This document shows positions 18,735 through 52,800 of a stretch of 64,000 nt of DNA, piece by piece. Each line of letters begins with the position of its first letter. Position 1 is the stretch's first letter. The stretch covers positions 1-64,000 of the IMG/VR virus record IMGVR_UViG_3300035704_000002; one strand, 5' to 3'. Under the pieces are notes generated by a model. The model was not told the origin of the DNA. It worked only from the letters and a program-made list of their open reading frames with translations, and did not search any database. This DNA is from a virus. Position numbers and translations under genes: made by a program.

Positions 18735-20237
18735 GTGAGCGACACTCCCGACATGAGCGCGCCCGTGATCGCCGATCTCGCCGATGAAGCGGGGTTCTTC
18801 GAGGCACTGGCACTGCTGTGGGACACTGACGCCACCACCGCGCAGGTCGAAATCGACTGGACCGACCTGGGTGTCGGCGACCCGTTCGCGCTCGATCCGC
18901 TCACCCGCGAGATCCTGGAAAGCCTCGAACCCGGCGGCGTTCGGCCGTGGCGGGCCACGGCCCGCGAGAAGCAACTTCCGCCACCGGGCAACTGGTTGTA
19001 CTGGTTGATCCGGGCCGGACGTGGCTTCGGCAAGACCTTCACCGGTGCCAACGTGCTGGCCGAGTGGGCCGTGGAAGAAGTCGGCGATTACGCGGTCGTG
19101 GCGCCGACCTTCGGTGACGCCGTCAAGATCTGCGCCTCGGGGCCGTCCGGCCTGGTCAAGGCACTGGGCGACGATTTGGACAATTTCAACAAAAACGATT
19201 ACGTCCTGTACTTGAAGAACGGGTCACGCATCGTTCTGGCCTCCGCCGACGCGCCCGACCGCATCCGTGGCTGGAACCTCTCTGGCGCCTGGTGCGACGA
19301 GATGGGCTCCTGGCGCAGCAACGACGTGTGGTACGAGGGACTCCAGTTCGCGCTGCGCATCGGCACCCGGCCGCGCTGCGTGATCACCACCACGCCCCGG
19401 CGCGGCTCGCTGATCCTCAAAGAACTGGACGCGCGCGCGGGTGACGGCTCCGGCGAGGTCGTACTGACGCGCGGCTCGATGATGGAGAACGTCGCCAACC
19501 TCAACCCGGCCGTGGTCGACATGCTGCGCCGCCGCTACGAGGGCACCACGCTGGGCCGCCAGGAGCTGGACGGCGAGCAACTGGACGAGGTCGAAGGAGC
19601 GTTGATCACCGGCGCGCTGATCAACGCCACTCGCGTCGCCGTGGCCGATGTGCCTGAGCTGCACCGCATCGCGGTCGCCGTCGACCCGGCCACCACCAGC
19701 AAGATGGGCTCGGACGAGACCGGCATCATCGTCATGGGCATCGGGCCGGCGCCGCGCGGCTGGCAACCACCACTGGGCAAGGTGGTACTGGCCGGCACGC
19801 CGCACCTGTACGTGCTGGAAGACCTGTCGCGGCGCAGCACTCCCGAAACGTGGGGCCGTGTCGCCCTTGGCGCGGCCGACGAATGGGAGGCCGATGTGCT
19901 CACCGGCGAGGTGAACCAGGGCGGCGACCTGGTGGAGACCACGATCCGGCTGATCGCGCAGACCGAAGATCTCTACATGCCCGCCTACCTCGGCGTGTCG
20001 GCCAGCAAGGGCAAGAAGGCGCGTGCCGAACCGGTGGCCGGCGTGTGGGAGCAGCACCGGATGCACATCGTGGGCACCATGCCCGCGTTGGAGGATCAGT
20101 GGACCGGCACCGTGTTCACCGATGTCAAGGAGTCGCCCGACCACCTGGACGCGCACGTGTGGGGCTCGGTCGCGCTCATGCCGGAGCTGAGCGTGAAGTC
20201 CGGAACACAGATTCGACTGATCTCGGGCGCGGCCTGA
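18735..20237 (+). CDS. terL: Terminase large subunit
   Basis: 500 aa. The ATPase domain has a Walker-A-like LIRAGRGFGKT (about 95-105), a Walker B at WCDEMGSW (about 190) and a coupling-type TTTPRRG (about 220). The nuclease domain starts at VAVDPATTSKMGSDETG (about 313-329) and ends with an acidic DHLDAH (about 470). The order and spacing fit phage terminases of the Terminase_6/HK97 group. It cuts and translocates concatemeric DNA into the procapsid through the portal. GTG 18735 or ATG 18753 could be the start. It stands alone on the plus strand, about 31 kb from the portal, with no small subunit beside it. Confidence 0.93.
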   Translation: MSDTPDMSAPVIADLADEAGFFEALALLWDTDATTAQVEIDWTDLGVGDPFALDPLTREILESLEPGGVRPWRATAREKQLPPPGNWLYWLIRAGRGFGKTFTGANVLAEWAVEEVGDYAVVAPTFGDAVKICASGPSGLVKALGDDLDNFNKNDYVLYLKNGSRIVLASADAPDRIRGWNLSGAWCDEMGSWRSNDVWYEGLQFALRIGTRPRCVITTTPRRGSLILKELDARAGDGSGEVVLTRGSMMENVANLNPAVVDMLRRRYEGTTLGRQELDGEQLDEVEGALITGALINATRVAVADVPELHRIAVAVDPATTSKMGSDETGIIVMGIGPAPRGWQPPLGKVVLAGTPHLYVLEDLSRRSTPETWGRVALGAADEWEADVLTGEVNQGGDLVETTIRLIAQTEDLYMPAYLGVSASKGKKARAEPVAGVWEQHRMHIVGTMPALEDQWTGTVFTDVKESPDHLDAHVWGSVALMPELSVKSGTQIRLISGAA

Positions 20238-37630: not shown

Positions 37631-38818
37631 ATGTCAGCCGAGAGCGAACGGCAGGAGCCCCCGATGATCTGGACCCTCACCCCCGCCGAACTGGAAGCCA
37701 CCGAAGCGAAGATCGCGACGATCAACGCGCGCGCCGCCAAGCGCGGCTTCACCGGCCGACTGACCGTCGACTCGCGCCGCACCGAGGTCACCGAGGTCAC
37801 CGAATCCGGTTTGTCGGTCACCGAGGTGCGCTACGAAACCACCCTCGGCGGCGACGCCCCCTGCTACAACGGCTGGACGCTGTTGGCCGTACTGGACTGG
37901 GAGGGTGAGGACGGCCTGATCGTGCGCACCGCTCCCGGTGTCGAGTCGGTCAACCGCGACAGCCTGGTCCGCGACTACTGCGGTCACTGCAACACCACCC
38001 GCAACCGCCGCAAGATCTACCTGGTCGGCAACGCCGACGGCACCCAGGTGCAGGTCGGTTCCACCTGCCTGAAGGACTTCCTGGGCTGGACCGGCAACCC
38101 CGTGTTCTACGGCGTCGGCCAGATCACCGACGAGATCGACGGCATGCTGGGCGCGGGCTGTTGGGAGCACACCTACACCACCGAGACCGTGCTGGCCGCC
38201 GCATGGGCCGCCACCACGATGTTCGGCTATGTCAAGACCAGCGACTGGAGCAAGACGCCCACCAAGAACGTGGTGCTGTGCCTGCTGGATCCCCGTAGCC
38301 AGGCCGATCGGGAGCTGGCCCGCGACTGCGCGCCGGTGATCGCCAACGCCGCCGGCACGGCCGCCAAGGTCCGCGAGTTCATCTTGTCCGAGGCGTTCAG
38401 TGGTGAGGGCGAGTACGTGCGCAACCTCAAGGTGCTGGCCGGCCTGGATGAGGTGTCCTCTCGCAACATCGGCATCCTGGCATCGGCTCCGCAGGCGTGG
38501 GCGCGCGCACAGGAGCGCACGCTGATCCGCGAGCGGGAGCGCGCCGACGTGCTCAACGAGTTCGTTGGCAGCCCCAAGGCGCGCCTGGTGCTCACGGTGC
38601 GCGTCAAGGCCGTCCAGTTCATCCCCGGCGACTACGGCACGACGACGCTCTACACGATGACCGATGAAGCCGGACACCAGTTCAAGTGGTTCGCCCGCAC
38701 GGACGCCCTGGGCGAGGAGCCCAGCGAGACCCTGGTGACCATCAGGGGCACCGTGAAGAAGCACGAGGAGTACCAGGGCCAACGTTCCACCGTGCTGACC
38801 CGGTGCGCGGTGCAGTGA
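37631..38818 (+). CDS. Large zinc-finger/OB-fold-like phage protein, 395 aa
   Basis: ATG 37631 lies 5 nt after the -10 (predicted leaderless). The middle has DYCGHCNTTRNRRKIYLVGN and VGSTCLKDFLG (about 115-155), a four-cysteine zinc site. The C-terminus (about 320-393, LTVRVKAVQFIPGDYGTTTL, HQFKWFART, VTIRGTVKKHEEYQGQRSTV) has the strand pattern of an OB-fold. Similar proteins occur in actinobacterial phages and plasmids. Single-stranded DNA handling is a fair inference. Confidence 0.7.
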   Translation: MSAESERQEPPMIWTLTPAELEATEAKIATINARAAKRGFTGRLTVDSRRTEVTEVTESGLSVTEVRYETTLGGDAPCYNGWTLLAVLDWEGEDGLIVRTAPGVESVNRDSLVRDYCGHCNTTRNRRKIYLVGNADGTQVQVGSTCLKDFLGWTGNPVFYGVGQITDEIDGMLGAGCWEHTYTTETVLAAAWAATTMFGYVKTSDWSKTPTKNVVLCLLDPRSQADRELARDCAPVIANAAGTAAKVREFILSEAFSGEGEYVRNLKVLAGLDEVSSRNIGILASAPQAWARAQERTLIRERERADVLNEFVGSPKARLVLTVRVKAVQFIPGDYGTTTLYTMTDEAGHQFKWFARTDALGEEPSETLVTIRGTVKKHEEYQGQRSTVLTRCAVQ

Positions 38819-40794: not shown

Positions 40795-40891
40795 TTTCTC
40801 GCGAGAATCGAACAAACGCGACAGCGAGAATCGGACATTTCGCAGCGAGACGAGAACGAGAATCCACCGCGCCACCGAGACGAGACACAGC

Positions 40892-41242
40892 ATGCGAGCG
40901 AGACGAGAACGAGAATCCACCGCGCCCACCAGCGAGACGAACCCGGCTGGCCAGCGAGACGAGAGCGAGACGACGCCCAGTGCCGACAGCAAGACGAGAC
41001 GAGAATCCACCGGCCTGCTGCGCGACCTCGTCTCGCTGCTCGCACTGCTGGCCGGCATCGCAACCGCTGTGCTGTGTCTCGTTCACCTCGGCTGGTGGAC
41101 TGTCGGTCTCGTTGTCTCGCTGGTAACCGCGAGTAGCGGTCTGCTGGGTGCGCTACGCCGTTACGGTGATGAGCCTGCGGCACCGGTGGAGCACCTGATC
41201 GAGATCCGGCATACCGACGAATGGCCCACATCGGACGAGTGA
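40892..41242 (+). CDS. Membrane protein with repeat-encoded charged N-terminus, 116 aa
   Basis: ATG 40892. The first 42 residues are encoded by the CGAGAC tract and are Arg/Glu/Ser/Thr-rich (RARRERESTAP, DESETTPS). Two membrane segments (LVSLLALLAGIATAVLCLV, WWTVGLVVSLVTASSGLLG) and an acidic tail follow. No clear ribosome binding site. Function unknown. Confidence 0.6.
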   Translation: MRARRERESTAPTSETNPAGQRDESETTPSADSKTRRESTGLLRDLVSLLALLAGIATAVLCLVHLGWWTVGLVVSLVTASSGLLGALRRYGDEPAAPVEHLIEIRHTDEWPTSDE

Positions 41243-41679: not shown

Positions 41680-41897
41680 GCTGTCTCGTCTCGGCGTGGG
41701 CGCGGACCCAAAACGAGACGCCGACCGAGATCACCGTCTCGGTCGGCACTCAGCGTGTCTCGCTCGCGGCGAGACGTGCACCGAGACACCGAGCGAGAGA
41801 CGTCTCGCACCGAGCGAGACGCCGAACGAGAATCCCCACCCCCGCGCCACGCGCCGCGCCGGCTCGCGACGCGGCATCGACCGAGACGGCGTCTCGC

Positions 41898-42488
41898 TCA
41901 CGACTGCGCCGGAGGGTTGCTGATCGCGTTGGCGAACACACCCGGCGCCTGCCCCGGCGCGGGGCGAGACGAGACGGTAGCCGGCACCATGGGGGCGTTG
42001 TTGATGAGCTTGTCTCGCTCGTCCCCGGCCGCCCGCATCGCCGTGATCGCCTGGTGCCGATCGTCCAACAGCAGGCTGCGCCGCCGCACCATCGTCCACG
42101 CGGCGAAGCCGCCGATCGCCAGCATCGCCAGCCCGACGACGCCCGCGATCGTGCCCCACGAGCTGACCGCCATCACCAGCAAGAACAGCCCGAACAGCAC
42201 CATCAGGATGCAACGGACGAAACGGCCAGGGCGGAACTGGGTCAGGTCACGGTCGGCGCACTGCACCGCGTAGCTCGCGTTGACCACGCGCTGATCCAGC
42301 TTGCGCAGCGCGGGCGCGCGATCCTGTATCGCGAACAGCCTCCGGGTCATAGTGTCGATCTCGCCCTGGAACCGCGCGCAGTTCGCGCTGTCGGCCGCCT
42401 GCGCGTCGCGCAGCACCTTCGCTTCGATGATCCGCGTGCGCAGAGTCTGCACCTGCTCGTCGTAGAGATCCGGTTCGTCGTCTGTCAT
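41898..42488 (-). CDS. Membrane protein of the tra-like module, 196 aa
   Basis: ATG 42488 has GAGGAG. A coiled-coil-like N-terminus (YDEQVQTLRTRIIEAKVLRD, FQGEIDTMTRRLFAIQDR) leads to two membrane helices (about 105-150, CILMVLFGLFLLVMAVSSW and AGVVGLAMLAIGGFAAWTMV) and a Pro/Ala-rich tail. Last gene of the module. It may act with the translocase in spreading DNA, by position only. Confidence 0.6.
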   Translation of the reverse strand: MTDDEPDLYDEQVQTLRTRIIEAKVLRDAQAADSANCARFQGEIDTMTRRLFAIQDRAPALRKLDQRVVNASYAVQCADRDLTQFRPGRFVRCILMVLFGLFLLVMAVSSWGTIAGVVGLAMLAIGGFAAWTMVRRRSLLLDDRHQAITAMRAAGDERDKLINNAPMVPATVSSRPAPGQAPGVFANAISNPPAQS

Positions 42489-42536
42489 GGCTCCTCGCTC
42501 TGTCACTGTGGGTGGTGGTGTCCGGGGGGTAATCGG

Positions 42537-42652
42537 CTCACTCACTCACTCACTCACCGGTGTGGCAGGGCGGGGTCGTCGCCCGTAACACCCGGTCAGA
42601 CCCCTACGAGGGGGGCCTGTCGGTGAGTGAGTGAGTAGGTGAGTGAGTTGAC
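42537..42652. repeat. Inverted CACT/GTGA microsatellite repeat with central hairpin
   Basis: A run of five CACT units (42537-42558) faces GTGA runs (42622-42649) about 65 nt away; the arms are complementary. Between them GACCCCTACGAGGGGGG can also fold. It lies between the translocase gene and the gene at 42488. Confidence 0.75.
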
Positions 42653-42657
42653 ATTGG

Positions 42658-45063
42658 TCACTCGTTGTCACTCCCTGTGGTGTTGCTGTTCACGGTGTCG
42701 TACACCCGGCCGGGCAGCCCGTACCGGTCGCTCTCGTCCTTGGTCAGCCGGCCGGAGTCGACCAGCTTGCGCAGCAGGTTGTAGACAGCGATGTCGTTGT
42801 CCACCGCGTCACCGCATCCGCGCAGCGCCGCGATCAGCTCGGCCGACCGCATCGGCACCGTCATGGCATCCAAGATCGCCAGGATCGCCTCTGTCCGCGT
42901 CGGCTTCGTCGCGCCCGGCCTGCCCTGCGCCACCGTGGCCGGCGAGGGCCGCTCGCCGTCGCCTGTCCAGTTGGTGCGCGCGCCGGACGGATCGAGCACA
43001 ACCGGCGCTGCGGTGCGCGGGGAGACGGGCACCGCGTCCTGGACCGCGTCGGCCGGCACGGCATCCTCCACCGGCTGTTCACCGCCGACCGTGTAGCCGG
43101 CCGGGTCGGCGAGGAAGCGGCGGAACTCGATCAACGATCCGAACTCGTTCGCGATCGCCTCCACGAACCCGCGCTGCTCGAACGGCGACATGCCGGCCAC
43201 GTCAACGCCGCCGACCCGCGCCGCCTCCAGCACCTCGACCACGTTCAGCGGCTCCGGTCGGCGCATGGTCGACTCGCTCATGGACGCGACCGAGTTGCCG
43301 CCGGTGTAGGCCAGGAACTCCGGCGTGACTCGCTGGTGTCGGTGGGCGTACGCCGGGCCGGCCGCGCGGGCCGATTCGGCGTCCAGCGGCCGGCGGAAGT
43401 GGCGACGCGACCAGGACACGTCCGCGATGGTGAGGCCGTCGTGCAGCCGTCGTTTGGTCGGATCGACCTCCTGGATGTAGGGCGCCTTGACCAGTTGTGG
43501 CCCTTCCTCGCCTTCCTCGCCACCGCCGTTGAGCCAGAACTCACCTTTCTGATGCGGCATGGGCAGCCGGTAGTCACCCATGAGACGGCCGATCGTGGCC
43601 TGGTCGCTGATCTTGAACGCCGTTGTGAACCCGGTCTGCGCGGCGATGTCGCCACCCCGGTCGCCGAGCTGGTCGTTCGTGTCGCGTTGCGTGGCGTAAT
43701 GCAAAAAGCAGTTCGCCGAGCCCGCACCCTGGCCGATGTTGCCACCCATGTCACTCATGGTGACCGGCTGGCCGTCGTAGACGTCCAGCACCATCTTGTT
43801 TTTCAAGGCGAAGCTGGCCTCATCCATGATGCAGATGATCGTGGGCCAGCGACGCTGCGACATCGACACGGCCTGCCGATAGCGGGCCACGTTCATCAAC
43901 GAGATCATCATGGCCAGCGTGTCCTCGGGGCCACGCGCGACCCAATCGAAAGGCGGGTCGAAATCAGTCCCCAGGTACACCTCCAGCCACGCCGCCACGA
44001 GGTCGTACAGCTTCTCCGTTCCGCAGATCCAGATCACACAGTTGTCCAGCTCGAAGTCGTTGCCGGCGCACGCTGTCATGAACGCCAGCAACGTGTGGAT
44101 AAGCGATGTCTTGCCGCTGCGTGTTTTGCCGATGTGCTGGCCGTGCTGGGTGAGCAGCAACTGCACCGGCTTGGTGTCGATGCCGTAGCCGCACACCGCC
44201 GGCCGGCTGATCTGCTGCTGAACGCGCGGATCGTGATACGGGTACAGACGGCCCATCACGTCCTCGATCACCGTGGTGATCGAGTACAGGCCGGCCGCCG
44301 GCAGCTTGCGTACCCCGACGAACCGCGACTCCAGTTGCACGCCGATCTGCTCGGACAGCGCGATCGCGATCGGCTCGGCCGCGTCCGGCGGCACGACAGC
44401 CTTGTTCGCGCCGTCGGTGGCCAGCCGGGACGCCGGCACACGCACCTGGAACGCGACACCGAACACCCGCGCCGCGTCCCTGATCGGCTCGCCGCCCACC
44501 ATGACCAGCCAGCCCAGGCCAGCCGAGGCCAGGGCCGCCATCATCACCTGCTCGTCATGCGAAAGGTCAGCCCAGTCGCGAGTGCGGGCCAGCGTGCGCA
44601 CCCGGTCGGGCTCCACTTCGCCGACCGGACGCACCATCACCTCGGCGCTCGGTGCGTCCACGGGTGCCGGCGTTACGGCCGGCGTGGCGCGACGTAGCCG
44701 GAACCAGTGCAGGTGCAGCAGGTGCGACACCCCGATCTGGGTGGCCACCACCACACAGACCAGCGCCAGCCACTGCAACCACCAACCGGCGCTGGTGACC
44801 ACCAGCACCATCGTGGTCGCGGCGTAGGCGGCGACCGCGCCGCCGATCCACCACAGCGCCGCGCGCTGCACGTCTTTGCTCCAGTTCTCACACGGCTTAC
44901 TACGCCGCACGCCGTGCGTACTGATCAGCAACGCCAGGCCGGCCAGCACCACGATCACGACGGCGGTCGCGGCCACGGAGGCGTGCAACAGCACCGCCAG
45001 TAGTCCCGTCACAGCGGTGAGCACGCCGGCCAAGGCGGCGTAGAAGACCTTGAAAGACACCAC
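42658..45063 (-). CDS. traB: TraB/FtsK-type DNA translocase
   Basis: 801 aa. The N-terminal 130 residues hold three to four membrane helices (FYAALAGVLTAVTGLLAVLL, VVIVVLAGLALLIS, WWLQWLALVCVVVATQIG). A RecA-like motor follows: Walker A GKTRSGKTS (about 320), VIWICGTEKLYDLVAAW, and Walker B TIICIMDEAS (about 415). The last 75 residues (TRTEAILAILDAMTVPMRSA..., NDIAVYNLLRKLVDSGRL) form a winged helix like FtsK-gamma and the TRS-binding end of Streptomyces TraB. In mycelial actinomycetes TraB alone moves double-stranded plasmid DNA. GTG 45063 is preferred (GAGAGGAG). Its presence next to Spd-like genes and a GntR repressor in a phage genome is unusual. Confidence 0.82.
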   Translation of the reverse strand: MVSFKVFYAALAGVLTAVTGLLAVLLHASVAATAVVIVVLAGLALLISTHGVRRSKPCENWSKDVQRAALWWIGGAVAAYAATTMVLVVTSAGWWLQWLALVCVVVATQIGVSHLLHLHWFRLRRATPAVTPAPVDAPSAEVMVRPVGEVEPDRVRTLARTRDWADLSHDEQVMMAALASAGLGWLVMVGGEPIRDAARVFGVAFQVRVPASRLATDGANKAVVPPDAAEPIAIALSEQIGVQLESRFVGVRKLPAAGLYSITTVIEDVMGRLYPYHDPRVQQQISRPAVCGYGIDTKPVQLLLTQHGQHIGKTRSGKTSLIHTLLAFMTACAGNDFELDNCVIWICGTEKLYDLVAAWLEVYLGTDFDPPFDWVARGPEDTLAMMISLMNVARYRQAVSMSQRRWPTIICIMDEASFALKNKMVLDVYDGQPVTMSDMGGNIGQGAGSANCFLHYATQRDTNDQLGDRGGDIAAQTGFTTAFKISDQATIGRLMGDYRLPMPHQKGEFWLNGGGEEGEEGPQLVKAPYIQEVDPTKRRLHDGLTIADVSWSRRHFRRPLDAESARAAGPAYAHRHQRVTPEFLAYTGGNSVASMSESTMRRPEPLNVVEVLEAARVGGVDVAGMSPFEQRGFVEAIANEFGSLIEFRRFLADPAGYTVGGEQPVEDAVPADAVQDAVPVSPRTAAPVVLDPSGARTNWTGDGERPSPATVAQGRPGATKPTRTEAILAILDAMTVPMRSAELIAALRGCGDAVDNDIAVYNLLRKLVDSGRLTKDESDRYGLPGRVYDTVNSNTTGSDNE

Positions 45064-45109
45064 GGCGAACTCCTCTCGGGTAGACGGGACTACTGGCGGC
45101 GGTGAGGCA

Positions 45110-46807
45110 TCAGGAGCGCGAGCTGACGAGATTGCGCAGCGCGGCGTAACCCCTGGCCAGACCATTCCGCGTCTCGGCGGTCCGCTCCAGGTTGGTGGCC
45201 TCCTGGTTCAGCCGGTCCGCTGCCGGCGCCATGTCGGGCACGCCGGACAGTCGACCGGCCTCGGCCCGCGCGTCCCGTGCCTGCTCGGTCAGGTTGCGGG
45301 CCGAGCTGACGGCGGTGGACTCGGCGGTCGAGTAGGCGTCCGTGCGGGTCGCGGTGGTGGAGGCGTCCTGGATCGGAGTTGCGGTTCCCATGGTGTTACT
45401 CCCTGTGTGTGCGGTACCCGCTGGTGCGGGCGATGCTGGTAGTGCTGTTACCGGCGTCCAGTGGGTGCCGGTCCATCGGTGCCCGGTGGTGGGCGGGTTC
45501 GGGATGACCTCGGCGTTCACGATGTTGCTGATGCCGGGAACGCTTCGGGCACTGGGCGGGTCGGGCGTGTAGACGCGGTGGGGCGGTAGCGTCACCGTGG
45601 TGGTCGGTGCCGGCCCACCCTGGTCACCGCTTGGCGTGGTGGCGTTGCGTCGCCTGTTCCACCACCGCTGCCTCGGTGGTGCTGCCGGTGGCGGCGGCGG
45701 TCCGGCCAGCGGGATGCCGGCCGGCATCGGTGGCGGCGGCGTGGTGGGACTGGTGCTCGCGTTGGTGCTGCGGCGCTGCCACCACCGGCGCTTCGTCGGG
45801 CCGGCGGAGGCGTTGCCCGTGGGGCTGCTCGAGGGCGGTGTCGCCTTGGGGCCGGGGTTGACCTTGGTGCTTGGTGGTGTGGTAGCGGCGTTCGTGCCGG
45901 CGTTGTTACCCCTGGTGCCCTTGGTGCTCCACGGCCAGCGACGCCCGCTACCGGGTGGCGTCGTGGTCGCGGTGGAGTTGGTGCCGTTGGGCCCCTTGCC
46001 GGTCGGGCTGTTCGGCGTGGTCGCACCCTTGCCGGGGCCACCGCCCGGACCGCCGTTGGCACCGGGGTTGACCGTGTTCTTGGTGCTCCATGGCCAGCGG
46101 CGCCCGGTGGGCTTCTTCTCCGGTGTGCCCGTGGGCGAGCCGGCGCTGTCGGGCTTCTTGATTGTCGGGTTCTTGCCGGTGGGATCGGTCGCCTTCTTGC
46201 CGGCCTCCGGCTTGTCGGCCGCGTTCTTCCTCGTGCTCCACGGCCAGCGGCGACCGCCCGACGGCGCACCCTTCGGCCCGGCGCCCGGTCCACCGGGGCC
46301 GGACCCTCCTGGGCCGTTGCCGGGAGTGCCGCCCGGCGACCGCCGATTGCGGTCGAAGGGCCACAGGTGCCGGCGGTTGTGTTCGCGCGCGGCGTTCTTC
46401 TCCGGGTTCTTGGCGTTCTTCTTGGCCGCCGCGTCGCCACCGCGTCGACGATGCAGCCACCGGCGCCACAGGTGGATTAGCAGGGCGGCCAGGATCAGGG
46501 CGAGTAGGAACAGGGCGGCCATCGGGGACATCCTCCACAGCGCGATGAGCAGAACCAGGACGACAGCGCTCACCAGGACCAGCGCCAGGTGGTTGCCGTG
46601 CACGCCCGACTTCGCCGTGTCGGCGGTCTCGCCGGCCTTCGTGTCGCTCGTACTGGGCTTCTCCGTCGGGCTGGCCACCGTGGTGTCGGTCGACGGCTTG
46701 GGTGTTTCGCCGCTCGTCACGGCCGGCTTGGCGGCTTTCTCACCCTTCGTCGCCGGCTTGGGCGGTTCGCTGGGCGGTGGCGCGCTGGTGAACACGTTCT
46801 CTGCCAT
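45110..46807 (-). CDS. Spd-like membrane protein with RRWPWST repeats, 565 aa
   Basis: Domain order: Pro/Thr-rich cytoplasmic start (1-70), two membrane helices (about 75-118, LALVLVSAVVLVLLIALWR, ALFLLALILAALLIHLW), a basic stop (RRWLHRRRGG), a 280-residue low-complexity region, and a helical C-terminus with coiled-coil character (NLTEQARDARAEAGRLSG). The low-complexity part carries spaced aromatic-basic blocks: HLWPFDRN, RRWPWSTRK, RRWPWSTKN, RRWPWSTKG, RRWWQRR, RQRWWNRR. Size, topology and place next to traB recall plasmid spread (Spd) proteins; no sequence family is claimed. Confidence 0.65.
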   Translation of the reverse strand: MAENVFTSAPPPSEPPKPATKGEKAAKPAVTSGETPKPSTDTTVASPTEKPSTSDTKAGETADTAKSGVHGNHLALVLVSAVVLVLLIALWRMSPMAALFLLALILAALLIHLWRRWLHRRRGGDAAAKKNAKNPEKNAAREHNRRHLWPFDRNRRSPGGTPGNGPGGSGPGGPGAGPKGAPSGGRRWPWSTRKNAADKPEAGKKATDPTGKNPTIKKPDSAGSPTGTPEKKPTGRRWPWSTKNTVNPGANGGPGGGPGKGATTPNSPTGKGPNGTNSTATTTPPGSGRRWPWSTKGTRGNNAGTNAATTPPSTKVNPGPKATPPSSSPTGNASAGPTKRRWWQRRSTNASTSPTTPPPPMPAGIPLAGPPPPPAAPPRQRWWNRRRNATTPSGDQGGPAPTTTVTLPPHRVYTPDPPSARSVPGISNIVNAEVIPNPPTTGHRWTGTHWTPVTALPASPAPAGTAHTGSNTMGTATPIQDASTTATRTDAYSTAESTAVSSARNLTEQARDARAEAGRLSGVPDMAPAADRLNQEATNLERTAETRNGLARGYAALRNLVSSRS

Positions 46808-46811
46808 GGGG

Positions 46812-47024
46812 TTACCCGAATGCCTTACTGATGCCGTTGGTGATCTTGGCGATGAGATCGATCAGCGCGGTGACGAGCCCCTTAACCAGGCTCACAATCT
46901 TGAGGATGAGGCCGCCGATCATGTCGGCGACGCCGGCCGGGTCGTGGGCCACCCAAGCGATAAGAGTGATCACCGCAGTCCAGAAGACCAGGACCCACAT
47001 CCAGTGAAACAATGTTCGAGTCAC
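46812..47024 (-). CDS. Small Spd-like membrane protein, 70 aa
   Basis: GTG 47024 overlaps the upstream stop (GTGA). Two hydrophobic stretches: MWVLVFWTAVITLIAWV and a long amphipathic segment (IGGLILKIVSLVKGLVTALI). Short membrane proteins of this kind sit beside traB in actinomycete plasmids. Confidence 0.65.
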   Translation of the reverse strand: MTRTLFHWMWVLVFWTAVITLIAWVAHDPAGVADMIGGLILKIVSLVKGLVTALIDLIAKITNGISKAFG

Positions 47025-47854
47025 TGCCCACTCGCCTCCTTGCGCTGGTCTTCCCAGGCGCGGCGGACGCCGCGTCCGTAGTTGCGAGTTCCGAACTCCT
47101 TGTCCAGGTCGGCGCCAGTGGCGCCGGGGTTCTCATCCAGGTAGGCCAACATCTGCGCGCGGCGCGAGGCACCGGCCTGAATGGCCAGCACATTTCCGCG
47201 TGCTGCGATGGAAGCCGACGCGCCCGAGGGAATGGGCGTGGCTGCCTCGGGGAGCAGCTTGCGGGACACCTCGGGCGCGTCGACGGCCGGTGCGGTCGCG
47301 ACGGGGGATGCCTTGGCCACGTCGGTCCGCTGAGGGGTGGTCTTGGATGGGCGCTTACTACCGGAACGCCGGGTGATTACAAGAGCTGCTTTGGTGCTGG
47401 ATCGCTCTACGGCGATCAGCGCGGCCAGGTGCACGATGGCAGCCAGGCTCAGCGATGGCAGGCCGCCCACGGCCAGGCGGAGCCAGAGTGGCGCCATTTG
47501 CCCCTGCGGCACGGTGATCGCAAGATGCAGCGAGGCGCCCAGAAAACTCAACACCATGTCGGCGACCGTGATGAACGCGGCGTAGCGGCGGATTCCGGCA
47601 CCGAATCGAGTCGAGAGCCACACGCGGGTGCACACCACGGCCGACATGTCGGTGGCCACGGGCAGCACCCAGGCCAGCTTGCCTGACACACCGGCGAGCA
47701 CCGCTGTGTCGAACAGGCTGCGGGCGGAGAACGCTGCAACCGCAAGGCCGACCACGGCGATCCCGACCAGCGCGAGCAGGTCGACACCAGGCGCATCGCT
47801 GCGCGTATCCGCCCGTGGCGATACGTCCGGTGTGGTGGTCGGCGGAGTATTCAT
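47021..47854 (-). CDS. DUF2637-family protein with C-terminal HTH
   Basis: 277 aa. Residues 25-150 hold four membrane segments (LLALVGIAVVGLAVAAFSAR, AWVLPVATDMSAVVCTRVWL, FITVADMVLSFLGASLHLAI, LSLAAIVHLAALIAVER), the DUF2637 pattern of actinobacterial mobile elements. A basic linker and a helix-turn-helix-like end (RRAQMLAYLDENPGATGADL...YGRGVRRAWEDQRK) follow. ATG 47854 has GAGGGG. First gene of the tra-like operon, diverging from the GntR gene. Confidence 0.78.
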   Translation of the reverse strand: MNTPPTTTPDVSPRADTRSDAPGVDLLALVGIAVVGLAVAAFSARSLFDTAVLAGVSGKLAWVLPVATDMSAVVCTRVWLSTRFGAGIRRYAAFITVADMVLSFLGASLHLAITVPQGQMAPLWLRLAVGGLPSLSLAAIVHLAALIAVERSSTKAALVITRRSGSKRPSKTTPQRTDVAKASPVATAPAVDAPEVSRKLLPEAATPIPSGASASIAARGNVLAIQAGASRRAQMLAYLDENPGATGADLDKEFGTRNYGRGVRRAWEDQRKEASGQ

Positions 47855-47915
47855 CCGCATCCCCTCGGGCTATGGCGATCATGGGCCAAGTGTCGCTAGA
47901 CTGAAGATCGTAATA

Positions 47916-48047
47916 GGTGTAGATGTTTGCTTCGACCGACAATACCATCGACAGCTACGAACGTCTACAACTTCACTCTCCACCGCGTTTCGCAGATCAA
48001 CGAACTTGCCCTCCGCTAGCGAGGACTCAAACAAACGTCTACACTTT
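47916..48047. promoter_or_regulatory. Operator region between the tra-like operon and the GntR gene
   Basis: Three copies of a 13-bp sequence like AAACGTCTACACT lie here: AAACATCTACACC on the minus strand (47916-47928), CGAACGTCTACAA on plus (47958-47970) and AAACGTCTACACT on plus (48033-48045). The last supplies a -10 box (TACACT at 48040-48045) for the GntR gene. The layout fits KorSA-like autoregulation and silencing of tra genes. Confidence 0.65.
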
Positions 48048-48057
48048 TGGAGTTCAC

Positions 48058-48888
48058 ATGGCCGCTCTCACGCTCAAGCAGCGCATCGCGCAGGAACTGC
48101 GTCTGCTCATCCACCTCGGCGGCACCACGATCGCCGATCCGGCAGAGCCGAATTCCGATCTTCGTGACCGGTTCGGCCCGGTGATGGCGGGCGATACCCT
48201 GCCCTCCATCCGCGAACTCCAGGAGCACTACGACGTCGCTCGCGACACCGTCCGTGACGCGATCAGCGTGCTCGTGCACGAGGGGCTCGTCATTCCGCGC
48301 CGAGGTATCGGCACAGTGGTTCGCGACATCACGCCGGTGGTGGTGCCGTACAACCCAGACGCGCCTTCCCAGACCTGGCAGGAAATGATGGGCGCCGATG
48401 CTGTCGACCAGGTGATCACCGTTGAGTGGGAAGCAGCCGATCCGGAGACTGCGCAGTGGCTCGGTGTCACGCCCGGCGCGTCCGTGCTGCACCGCCTACG
48501 GCATCGTGGCCTGGCCGGCGTGATCGTGCAGACCCACCACCAATGGATCGTGGGAACGGTGGTGGATGACATTCGTACCCGCGTCGGCGTGGATCTGTCC
48601 GACCGGCGCACTCCGTTGTCAACGGACCTGTTCGTACTGATGGCGCAGGCCGGGCACCGCCTGAAGGAGACCGTCGAAAATGTGTCCTCTCGGATGCCTG
48701 ACGCCGATGAGCGGGAGTTGATGGACATCCCACTCGGTGTGCCGGCCACGGTGGTGAACCGGGTGACGCCCGAGGTGACCGGCGAACCACTGGAGGTCAG
48801 CCAGATCGTGGGTGCAGGCGATCGGATGGTGTACTCGTATCGGATGCCGATCGCCAAGCGGCTGCCATCGATTCCTACGGATAGGTAA
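48058..48888 (+). CDS. GntR-family regulator with UTRA-like ligand domain (KorSA-like)
   Basis: 276 aa. The N-terminal winged helix has LPSIRELQEHYDVARDTVRD then AISVLVHEGLVIPRRGIGTV (about 48-92), the GntR signature. The rest (about 110-270) has the UTRA-type beta layout (ETAQWLGVTPGASVLHRLRH, IPLGVPATVVNRVTPEVTGE, GDRMVYSYRMPI). Plasmid KorSA/KorA proteins of this kind repress tra genes and themselves. ATG 48058 has TTGGAG. It faces the tra-like operon across shared operators. Confidence 0.85.
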   Translation: MAALTLKQRIAQELRLLIHLGGTTIADPAEPNSDLRDRFGPVMAGDTLPSIRELQEHYDVARDTVRDAISVLVHEGLVIPRRGIGTVVRDITPVVVPYNPDAPSQTWQEMMGADAVDQVITVEWEAADPETAQWLGVTPGASVLHRLRHRGLAGVIVQTHHQWIVGTVVDDIRTRVGVDLSDRRTPLSTDLFVLMAQAGHRLKETVENVSSRMPDADERELMDIPLGVPATVVNRVTPEVTGEPLEVSQIVGAGDRMVYSYRMPIAKRLPSIPTDR

Positions 48889-49477: not shown

Positions 49478-50041
49478 TCACCGCGTGCCGCTCGCCTCGA
49501 TCATGGCCACCGTCACCGCCAGCACATCGTCCAGACTGGAATACACCGGCATGCCCGGTCGCGCGAGTTGGCACAACATGTGCACGTCCGCCTCGCGCGG
49601 ATAGTCCGGGTGCGCACCCGCCGCGATGAGACGCCCCTCGCCCAACGCCTGCCCCAGCTCGAACATCGCGATCGGTTGCGTCGTCACCGAGGCATCGCAC
49701 GCCGGGAACCAGAACAGGGTGACCGCCGCCAGGTGCAGGTGGTGCTGTTCCCAACTGACCTGCTCCCAACTCGCGCTCGGATCGCCGATGGGAAACGAGG
49801 CACGATGCGGGTTCAGGATCACCACCGGCGTCGCGCCGGTCAGCACCTCGATCGCGCGGGCATGCCAGCGCTCGGCGACACCGGTGATGCCACCCGCGAG
49901 AAACACGGCCGGCGCGTCACAGCGCTGAGGCCGGTAGTAGGTGGGCGCCTCGAAGTACAGGTGCTGGGCGCCGCCACGAAACGGCGCGGCCGGCACATGG
50001 TGCGCGCTGGGCCGCCTGGCGGCACTGATCGCGGTGTTCAT
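49478..50041 (-). CDS. Nucleoside 2-deoxyribosyltransferase-like protein
   Basis: 187 aa. VFLAGGITGVAERW (about 47-60), VVILNPHRASFPIGDPSASW (about 71-90) and LFWFPACDASVTTQPIAMFELGQAL (about 108-132) form the fold signature, including the FELG glutamate position of the Nuc_deoxyrib_tr_3 family. ATG 50041 overlaps the upstream stop (ATGA). It may remodel deoxynucleosides or serve as a nucleotide-signal enzyme in phage metabolism. Confidence 0.78.
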   Translation of the reverse strand: MNTAISAARRPSAHHVPAAPFRGGAQHLYFEAPTYYRPQRCDAPAVFLAGGITGVAERWHARAIEVLTGATPVVILNPHRASFPIGDPSASWEQVSWEQHHLHLAAVTLFWFPACDASVTTQPIAMFELGQALGEGRLIAAGAHPDYPREADVHMLCQLARPGMPVYSSLDDVLAVTVAMIEASGTR

Positions 50042-50475
50042 GACGCCCGCTCCACGACCGGCTCACTGACGTGGTGGTGGGTCAGGCGTACGCCGTGGCC
50101 GGCCAGCGCGAGCCGTTCGGCGATTACCTCGGCCAGGGCGACGCTGCGGTGGCGGCCACCGGCGCACGCCAGGCCGATCCGCACCGGCCGCGACCGGCCC
50201 AGGCTGTCCAGCAGCGCCAGCGCGGTACCGACCAGGTAGCCGGCGAGCGCGACGGCGCCGGGCGTGGCCAGCACGTGCACCCGCGTCGCGAGGTCGCGCC
50301 CGGTGGACTGGCGCATCTGGGGCGAGGTATGCGGATCGCGTAGGAAGTCGCGCAGGTCGATCAGCAGGTCGTAGTCGCCGGGCGCGCCGTGTAGGTGTCC
50401 GAACGACTCGACGTGCACATCGGTGTCGCGCACCGTCGCCAGGGCGATGACGATGGGTGTCGTAGCGGGGCTCAT
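50038..50475 (-). CDS. Stand-alone RapZ C-terminal domain protein
   Basis: 145 aa. LIDLRDFLRDPHTSPQMRQSTGRD (in parts, about 38-60) matches the D-R-F-x-N-P-H region of RapZ. IGLACAGGRHRSVALAEVIA (about 100-119) matches its GCTGGKHRSV loop, and HHHVSEP the end. The N-terminal kinase-like P-loop half of RapZ is absent. RapZ's C-domain binds RNA and signals; a phage copy alone could act on host sRNA or nucleotide signals. ATG 50475 has GGAGAC. Confidence 0.75.
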   Translation of the reverse strand: MSPATTPIVIALATVRDTDVHVESFGHLHGAPGDYDLLIDLRDFLRDPHTSPQMRQSTGRDLATRVHVLATPGAVALAGYLVGTALALLDSLGRSRPVRIGLACAGGRHRSVALAEVIAERLALAGHGVRLTHHHVSEPVVERAS

Positions 50476-51183: not shown

Positions 51184-52800
51184 GTGCCCGGCGTGGCGCA
51201 GCGGCGGTTCCTACCCGCGCTCCGGCGCATCTTCGCGCCCGCCCTGGAAAGCAAAGGTCTGCCCGAGCAGGTGCGCGCCAGTTCCCAGGCGTACCTCGTG
51301 CCTGGCGTCCCGTACTCGCAGAACTGGTCCACTCAGCGTGCCGTGCGCGAGGCGTACGAGCCGAATCCGCTGGTGTATCGGGCGATCGAGGTACTGGCCA
51401 CCAACGCGATCAGCCAGCGCATCGTGTTGCGCCAGGGTGACCCCGAGGAAGGCCCGATCATCGACACCGCGCACGACCCGACGCGGCTGCTCTACGTGTT
51501 CAACCGCCGCGCCAACCCGTGGGAGACCGCCAGGGTGTTCCGTCACCGGTTGGTGGCGCAGTGGCTACTGTCCTCACGCGGGCTGTTCGTGGAGATCATC
51601 CGCACACGCGGCGGCGGCATCGCCATGGTCAACCTGCTGGACCCCGACCTGGTCGACATGATCCCCGACCGGACCGACCCGATGCACGCCTTCCGGGTAC
51701 GCACCCCGAACTCCTCCACCGGATTCGACTACCTACCCCGCTTCGATCCGGCCAAGACCGCGCGCGAACAGCCCGCCTCCATCCTGTGGATGCGCAACCC
51801 GCACCCGACTGTGGCGTGGCAGGGCATGAGCCCGGTGCAGGCCGCCGGCCTGCCGATCGACCTGGATCGTTACGCCCGGCTCTACAACCGCCGATTTCTA
51901 CAGAACGACGGCCGGCCCGGCGGCCTGCTCTCGATCAAGGGTGTCGTGGCGCCGGCCACCATGGAGCTGATCCAGAGCCAGTTCATGGGCGGCCCCGACT
52001 CGGCCGGCCGTACCACCGTGATCAACGCCGACTCGGTGTCCTACGCGGACACCAGCGGCTCGCCCCGTGACACGCTCTGGGGCGACACGATGGACCGCAA
52101 CCGGCGCGAGATCTGCACCGCGTTCGGGGTGCCCGAGAGCGTGCTGGGCGACGCGTCCGGCCGCACCTTCTCCAACGCCGACGCCGAATACGCGATGTTC
52201 TGGGAACACCGCATGCTGCCGCTGGTGCGGGCGCTAGATGACCAACTCGACATCCTCACCGAGATCATGGGGCCGGATGTCTATTTGCGTCACGATGTGT
52301 CCAAGGTGTGGGTGCTGGGTCGCTACCAGCGCGAGCACGAGGACCGTCTGGCCGCCGACCAGCAGGCCGGCTACCGCACCATCGATGAGGTGCGGGTGGC
52401 CAAGGGCGAGAAGCCCCAGAACGTGCCCGCCACCCGCGTGCTGTGGATACCGCCGGGCAAGCTCGCCGTGGCCGACGCGAGTCGTCCGCACGACGCCGAG
52501 GAAGCCGCCGCCGCGCCGATCGGCGGCCCGGTCAACGCCGGCTCGGCCGGCTCCGGCGCCGCTCAGGCCGGCGTCAACCACCTGTCCGGCTCGGGCTACA
52601 GCGCCGGAGACACCGACTATCTGGGCAGCGGCAAGGGTGGCGGCGGCAACTCCGACCTGCGTTTGCTGTCCGGCTCCGGCGGCGGCCGGGCCGGTGGCGG
52701 CTTCGAGAACATGGGCGAGATCGACCCGGACGAACTGGAGGGTAAGCAGAGCGGCCCGCGACGCTGGGGCTCCCCCAGTGGAGCCCGCATCGCCGGTTAA
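51184..52800 (+). CDS. Portal protein (HK97/Phage_portal family)
   Basis: 538 aa. YEPNPLVYRAIEVLATNAIS (about 55-75), SRGLFVEIIRT, NPHPTVAWQGMSPVQAAGL (about 203-221), RRFLQNDGRPGGLLSIKG, FGVPESVLGDASGRTFSNAD (about 317-336) and EHEDRLAADQQ are standard portal landmarks. It forms the dodecameric vertex for DNA entry. The last 100 residues are Gly/Ser-rich with repeats (GSGYSAG, GSGKGGGGN, SGSGGGRAGGG). GTG 51193 fits the upstream GGGAGG better than GTG 51184. The end overlaps the MuF gene by 23 nt. Confidence 0.93.
   Translation: MPGVAQRRFLPALRRIFAPALESKGLPEQVRASSQAYLVPGVPYSQNWSTQRAVREAYEPNPLVYRAIEVLATNAISQRIVLRQGDPEEGPIIDTAHDPTRLLYVFNRRANPWETARVFRHRLVAQWLLSSRGLFVEIIRTRGGGIAMVNLLDPDLVDMIPDRTDPMHAFRVRTPNSSTGFDYLPRFDPAKTAREQPASILWMRNPHPTVAWQGMSPVQAAGLPIDLDRYARLYNRRFLQNDGRPGGLLSIKGVVAPATMELIQSQFMGGPDSAGRTTVINADSVSYADTSGSPRDTLWGDTMDRNRREICTAFGVPESVLGDASGRTFSNADAEYAMFWEHRMLPLVRALDDQLDILTEIMGPDVYLRHDVSKVWVLGRYQREHEDRLAADQQAGYRTIDEVRVAKGEKPQNVPATRVLWIPPGKLAVADASRPHDAEEAAAAPIGGPVNAGSAGSGAAQAGVNHLSGSGYSAGDTDYLGSGKGGGGNSDLRLLSGSGGGRAGGGFENMGEIDPDELEGKQSGPRRWGSPSGARIAG

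Follow-up and report, generated by a model that had tools for sequence, protein, structure and literature searches.

A probable TraB-type DNA-transfer module beside the portal gene of a contractile-tailed actinomycete phage

A tra/kor-type gene module lies between the terminase and portal genes (positions 41898-48888) in the genome of a contractile-tailed phage of a high-GC actinomycete, with filamentous soil bacteria as hosts. The window, i.e. the whole stretch of DNA analysed, comprises 64,000 nucleotides and corresponds to bases 1-64000 of the 128,202-bp virus record IMGVR_UViG_3300035704_000002. Phages and conjugative plasmids are usually regarded as separate routes of DNA travel. From sequence comparison we propose that this module is a phage-borne TraB-type system that transfers DNA between cells, a reading to which we assign a probability of about two in three and under which, if true, the phage may travel without leaving its host. 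In such a mechanism, the GntR protein would repress the tra operon, with relief at some stage while the phage resides in the mycelium. A membrane-bound TraB hexamer would assemble on the circular DNA of the phage, load via its winged helix at a two-arm element that we predict to be its clt site, and drive this DNA, double-stranded and unprocessed, across the envelope or septum into an adjoining compartment or hypha; Spd-like proteins (565, 196 and 62 aa) and a DUF2637-like protein would aid membrane crossing. The phage would then have two routes, virions on the one hand and TraB-driven spread within and between mycelia on the other. In known systems, TraB and Spd proteins carry double-stranded DNA across mycelial membranes (PMC12857230).

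The phage genome and the genes of the module

The first and last 91 bases of the record are identical, which makes it most likely a closed circle of 128,111 bp, and base composition is even. The virion gene set is full (terminase, portal, MCP, sheath, baseplate J and endolysin): the head genes encode the portal, a head protein and the major head protein (MCP), a tail sheath gene is present, and the MCP, sheath and baseplate genes lie to the right of the portal. There are also genes for baseplate J and a GH25/LysM lysin, for DNA metabolism (DNA polymerase/primase-like, helicase, topoisomerase-like and nuclease) and for a WhiB protein. The MCP is nearest to those of Gordonia and Brevibacterium phages (45-48%). 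Elsewhere in the window, a DpdA gene (1052-1954, Pfam E 8e-77) is a sign of 7-deazaguanine DNA modification, and genes for a nucleoside deoxyribosyltransferase-like protein and a RapZ C-terminal domain (49478-50475) sit between the module and the portal.

A first-pass annotation, made from the letters of the window, had described an actinomycete plasmid-transfer module with phage genes on both sides. These are confirmed as the terminase on the left and the portal on the right, and its boundaries are good, with small corrections to the starts of the GntR gene (better at 48058) and of the motor gene (GTG at 45063, preferred and in agreement with homologue starts). Its suggestion that the element is a phage-plasmid has so far gained no support: the search it proposed for partition and replication genes in the rest of the element, carried out with Pfam on almost every gene called in the closed genome (ORFs of <60 aa and one 1536-aa gene, at 60.8-65.4 kb, excepted), recognised no integrase, ParA/ParB or plasmid Rep, and therefore a plasmid state cannot be asserted. 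Likeness to pSAM2 stands for the regulator and the layout and fails for integration and replication, as Pfam found neither an integrase nor an excisionase or Rep of the pSAM2 type, by which an AICE would be assigned. Nor did Pfam find in the phage a relaxase or a VirB4-type ATPase, by which relaxase/T4SS conjugation would be assigned.

A sister phage (G154; IMGVR_UViG_3300021510_000001, 55 kb), with identities to the window phage of 68% in the MCP, 64% in the sheath and 52% in the portal, carries a six-gene module in the same order, likewise adjoining the portal; its motor is 32-36% identical and free of stops. Since G154 has the module at the matching place and the record closes on itself, the module belongs to the phage, and the objection raised beforehand, that it could be a host chromosomal island merely abutting phage fragments, falls away. 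No such motor was found in 18 further records whose MCP is related (at least 46% identity), most of which may be fragments, nor in one record with a related terminase. TraB homologues do occur in two further phages with terminase and portal genes (G320 and G321), which brings the phage genomes that combine a transfer module with packaging or portal genes to at least four, and the module is held at one locus in two diverged relatives. Another is found in G227, a prophage-like contig whose phage nature is taken from neighbouring tail/lysin-like genes only. Scans with single TraB proteins returned none of these further viral relatives, which were found with alignment queries.

All named module genes are open, codon-typical ORFs. 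Five of them read leftwards as one operon, in the order DUF2637-like protein (277 aa), transmembrane (TM) peptide (62 aa), low-complexity protein (565 aa), motor (801 aa) and two-TM protein (196 aa), and a GntR/UTRA gene diverges from them (Table 1). The divergent GntR regulator had been recognised correctly: it shares 28% identity over 239 aa with the GntR protein adjoining the tra gene of pZL12 (E 1e-6), and its homologues adjoin tra in G154, in the G076 contig and in Kutzneria. Between regulator and operon, three 13-bp boxes look like operators, with a count that barely exceeds chance: allowing two mismatches, CAAACRTCTACAC-like boxes occur four times in the window against 1.25 expected, a modest excess, with three of the four inside the 200-bp gap.

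The motor bears out the TraB/FtsK-type translocase of the first-pass annotation. It is membrane-anchored, of the FtsK/HerA type expected of a TraB module, and has intact Walker A (GKTRSGKT, about residues 312-319) and Walker B (IICIMDEA, about 408-415) motifs; it matches phrog_1358 ('FtsK/SpoIIIE-like', E 3e-8), and in hhalign its family matches pIJ101 Tra (E 1.8e-5) and pZL12.71c (E 2.8e-6). Neither Pfam FtsK_SpoIIIE (PF01580) nor NCBIfam plasmid_TraB (NF041214) matches it and, because phrog_1358 and the profile-profile alignments are the only matches, we regard it as TraB-like in its working and a distant relative, not a curated TraB. Full-length homologues are found in Kutzneria buriramensis (47%), Amycolatopsis saalfeldensis (44%) and other phages (32-42%); a search of 60 Pseudonocardiaceae genomes with pIJ101 Tra, run without a positive control, gave no match at E 1e-20. 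The C-terminal winged helix described earlier is borne out by an AlphaFold2 model of residues 700-801, with pLDDT of 80-93 across the domain and Z scores of 9-11 to winged helices; the full-motor model is poor (pLDDT 49) and was set aside, save that its winged helix agrees with that of the domain. The fold matches listed for the domain include neither an FtsK-gamma nor a TraB structure, an absence that carries no weight.

Hydropathy recovers the two Spd-like membrane proteins described earlier (196 and 565 aa) and adds the 62-aa peptide, which had been overlooked and which has same-size counterparts at the same position in G154 (37747-37953) and in plasmid G076 (37234-37416). As in TraB modules, spd-type membrane genes are thus found within the operon and a GntR-type kor regulator alongside it. 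The 565-aa protein combines RRWPWST repeats with a conserved helical domain at its C-terminus (about residues 480-560) that is 52% identical to a protein of the Kutzneria plasmid and 28-32% to those of G154 and G076. The 196-aa gene ends the operon and has homologues at the matching position in Kutzneria (26%, E 5e-16), G076 and G154. For the protein assigned to DUF2637, a membrane protein is indeed encoded at that position, and the Pfam match is sub-threshold (E 0.005); it is 40% identical over 254 aa to the version in the sister phage (E 5e-47), and similarity to the plasmid versions is undetectable.

Table 1. Features of the module and its surroundings, in window positions.
Feature	Position	Strand	Basis and remarks
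Terminase large subunit	18735-20237	+	Left of the tra module; Pfam Terminase_6N, E 4e-15
R2 array A	40846-41119		(AG)CGAGACGA repeats: 8 of + orientation, followed by 4 of - orientation
Cys-rich phage protein, 104 aa	41302-41616	+	Between the R2 arrays; 44% homologue at the same relative position in G154
R2 array B	41683-42017		Clustered CGAGAC sites in both orientations; overlaps the end of the tra operon; counterpart in G154 at 42839-42964
Spd-like protein, 196 aa	41898-42488	-	Coiled-coil-like N-terminus and two TM helices; hydropathy
Predicted clt	42537-42648		Two inverted CTCA/TGAG tetranucleotide arms, just 3' of traB, before the 196-aa gene
FtsK/TraB-like DNA translocase, 801 aa	42658-45063	-	N-terminal membrane segments, HerA/FtsK motor, C-terminal winged helix
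Winged-helix domain of the motor	42718-42903	-	C-terminal; third helix NDIAVYNLLRKLVDSG; AlphaFold2 domain model
Low-complexity membrane protein, 565 aa	45110-46807	-	Pro/Thr/Gly-rich; hydropathy
Membrane peptide, 62 aa	46812-47000	-	Hydropathy
DUF2637-like protein, 277 aa	47021-47854	-	Membrane segments and C-terminal helix-turn-helix-like tail
Three CAAACRTCTACAC-like operator-like boxes, 13 bp	47917-47929, 47958-47970, 48032-48044	-, +, +	In the gntR/tra gap
GntR/HutC-type regulator with UTRA, kor-like	48058-48888	+	Pfam UTRA 7e-17, GntR 4e-13
Portal	51184-52800	+	Right flank of the module; phrog_2662 E 6e-43, phrog_12 E 1e-39

A predicted clt site and exchange with plasmids

The clt loci known so far consist of clustered 5-9 bp direct repeats and inverted repeats adjoining tra (PMC3583192), and TraB recognises 8-bp repeats through the third helix of its winged helix (PMC3583192; PMC12857230). 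Because known clt repeats adjoin tra and the TraB winged helix reads repeats, we call the two-arm element next to the motor gene a predicted clt, at which TraB would bind and load. On the sense strand of traB it reads CTCACTCACC-TACTCACTCACTCACC, about 60 nt and then GGTGAGTGAGTGAGTGAGTGAG, and it is the sole element of its kind in the 128-kb record. The Kutzneria plasmid has a two-arm element with the same motif, arms and position and with different spacer sequences, and the CTCA motif recurs at this position in prophage G227 and phage G320. A CAAA/TTTG version of the same architecture is found in G154, G076 and L103, and a CGAA version in L101. The element follows the traB stop directly in G227, G320 (L099) and L103, and the last operon gene in G154; in L101 it is found upstream of both traB and the low-complexity gene.

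One scoring rule was used on all sequences. It places the element at the tra module in 8 of 10 TraB-family elements, with none in 358 kb of background viral DNA and 4 in 2.6 Mb of Markov shuffles; G227, G320, L103 and L101 were inspected after the prediction had been formed, and each has it. Under the same rule the element is missing at the modules of Amycolatopsis and G321, and off-target GC-rich matches occur in G154 and pGBA129-24a. The winged-helix sequence AVYNLL is found in three of the four CTCA members and in no other member; a strict code between winged helix and motif is weakened by G227, which pairs the CTCA motif with a different helix.

R2 (CGAGAC), the densest short repeat of the 128-kb record with 26 sites in 1.2 kb, was the first candidate for clt. 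It was rejected, since the motif is kept unchanged in G154 (42839-42964 and 43580-43776) though TraB and the two-arm element differ there. R2 had at first been grouped with clusters of repeats close to the motor genes in pGBA129-24a, pAmyja1 and PIS136, and this grouping was also rejected; the pGBA129-24a cluster sits in a low-complexity coding region. The R2 arrays are possibly a replication origin, a partition site or a regulatory site. A CTGGTACC cluster near 119081, in a gap at record positions 118850-119983, is a second candidate origin or partition site.

The closest relatives of the motor are not in the sister phage. The 51-kb Kutzneria buriramensis contig NZ_QUNO01000038.1 encodes ParA, a ParB-like protein, a relaxase and a tyrosine recombinase-like protein, and we take it to be a plasmid because of its ParA, ParB-like and relaxase genes. 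Homologous modules are also found on an Amycolatopsis contig (76 kb) and, with a more distant motor, on the G076 contig (95 kb); the terminase and portal families have no match on any of these three contigs, and two of the genomes match elsewhere. A 9-taxon tree joins the window motor to those of Kutzneria and Amycolatopsis (100/100), apart from the sister phage; in a 12-taxon tree the same clade also includes phages G320 and G321 (100/99), and the nearest fork joins window and Kutzneria (89/91). Gene by gene, the motor and the C-terminal domain of the low-complexity protein are clearly nearest to Kutzneria, where the two-TM protein also has its best score. By these comparisons the module is a plasmid-phage mosaic in which the DUF2637-like gene tracks the phage lineage and, as that gene is nearest to the sister phage and the motor to Kutzneria, a recombination joint probably lies within the module. 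Were a clt common to phage and plasmid, either element could mobilise the DNA of the other.

Two to three distant phage genes are also closest to the Kutzneria plasmid. At record positions 123813-126286 (L004:1813-4286), a 631-aa gene (49%) and a 181-aa membrane-protein gene (59%) have homologues there, and a kinase fragment is likewise common to both elements. The helical domain at the end of the 565-aa protein recurs at the start of the 631-aa protein, which is likely a distant partner of the tra module. Two module-bearing plasmids encode a MobA/VirD2-type relaxase (Kutzneria L033:6183-7835, by Pfam; G076:C1:55265-56746, by similarity); a relaxase is not needed in canonical TraB transfer and is unusual for TraB systems. 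In Amycolatopsis, a fragment of a second traB copy lies downstream of traB (G003:C59:14179-14382).

Alternative roles for the module

The main weakness of cell-to-cell transfer as the role of the module is that no plasmid-maintenance or lysogeny gene is recognised, so that no stage at which the phage would lie quiet enough for transfer is evident. Also weighing against it are the distance of the motor from canonical TraB, whose curated models do not match, the loose link between winged-helix sequence and clt motif (G227), the lack of a two-arm element in Amycolatopsis and its position upstream of traB in L101, and the MobA-type relaxase on two plasmids bearing the module. A bolder form of the proposal, which we put forward tentatively and with more doubt than conviction, does without a lysogenic plasmid life: TraB and the Spd-like proteins would pump the replicating genome through septa and hyphal contacts during productive infection, spreading it through a mycelium ahead of lysis, and the tra slot by the portal would be a standing part of the lineage, renewed by swaps of TraB and clt with plasmids.

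FtsK and SpoIIIE segregate and position chromosomes. It is conceivable, if unlikely, that the motor serves the intracellular cycle of the phage in a comparable way: it would load at the two-arm element and help to segregate, disentangle or position phage DNA as it replicates, at the septa of a filamentous host, and would transfer nothing between cells. A genome in which no ParA/ParB was found could need another segregation device, and FtsK-like genes are found in other phages (phrog_1358); yet the cassette, including Spd-like genes and a kor-like regulator, is common to plasmids, of which that of Kutzneria has its own ParA and ParB-like genes, and the motor is not seen in the 18 related-MCP records, fragmentary as most of these may be. 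A main role in mobilising plasmids that reside in the same cell and bear the same clt motif, or in competing with them, with only an indirect gain for the phage, would agree with the identical CTCA motif and position in phage and Kutzneria plasmid and with the plasmid-specific TraB-clt recognition of known systems (PMC3583192); such a role would not require the phage to retain a clt copy of its own, as it does, and we consider it improbable. The grouping of the window TraB with plasmid TraB rather than with the sister phage would also be expected of a recently acquired plasmid tra block that is functionless in the phage. With all genes open, the same slot filled in G154 despite a TraB identity of only 32-36%, and a DUF2637-like gene common to both phages, such neutral cargo seems highly improbable. 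Least credible of all is an assembly chimera of plasmid and phage: the record is of metagenome type and known here from assembled sequence alone, but the independent G154 contig shows the same junctions, composition is even and the record ends overlap by exactly 91 bp.

Comparison with known systems

Plasmids of the pIJ101/pSVH1 type resemble the module in their FtsK-like motor with a C-terminal winged helix, their Spd-type proteins and their repeat-rich clt, and the divergent GntR-tra order of pIJ101 matches it. They differ in that the likeness between motors is at profile level only, in that their clt is not a tetranucleotide two-arm element and in that they have no virion genes. The Kutzneria plasmid shares with the window a full-length TraB (47%), an adjoining GntR gene and an identical clt motif and position, and differs in having no terminase or portal on its contig and a different DUF2637-like gene. 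More remote motors (25-30%) are encoded, at loci not annotated as tra modules, by three phage or phage-plasmid elements of actinomycetes: pGBA129-24a, pAmyja1 and Saccharomonospora phage PIS136; the same scan finds no two-arm element at their motor genes, and pGBA129-24a and pAmyja1, unlike the window phage, carry recombinase or integrase genes. In PIS136, a second FtsK-like stretch (L005:13871-14905) immediately follows the first (PIS_039 after PIS_041).

The precedent for phage and conjugation in one element is pZL12 of Streptomyces (PMC3583192; PMC5431353), the transfer of which requires the major tra gene and two neighbours (PMC3583192) and which has been called a singleton (PMC7157519). 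Like the window phage, pZL12/phiZL12 (NC_013420) joins virion genes and a tra locus, and in the same order: a DUF2637-like protein, a low-complexity membrane protein and an FtsK-like motor, with a GntR gene pointing away. In contrast to the window phage, it is 90 kb long and has ParA, ParB and an integrase annotated, a sheath is not named in its annotation, its motor shows no BLAST similarity to the window motor, the two being related at profile level only (the hhalign match given above), and the same scan finds no two-arm element in it. One survey of phage-plasmids reports mobilisation genes in elements that have lost their phage genes (PMC10879196). Virions and conjugation in one actinomycete element, with this gene order, are therefore already known from pZL12. 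Apparently new relative to the literature are 1) the occurrence, in large actinomycete phages with contractile tails and in others, of TraB-type modules that keep a fixed place in two relatives, and 2) the exchange of motor and site with plasmids, together with a two-arm tetranucleotide element as their putative common cis site.
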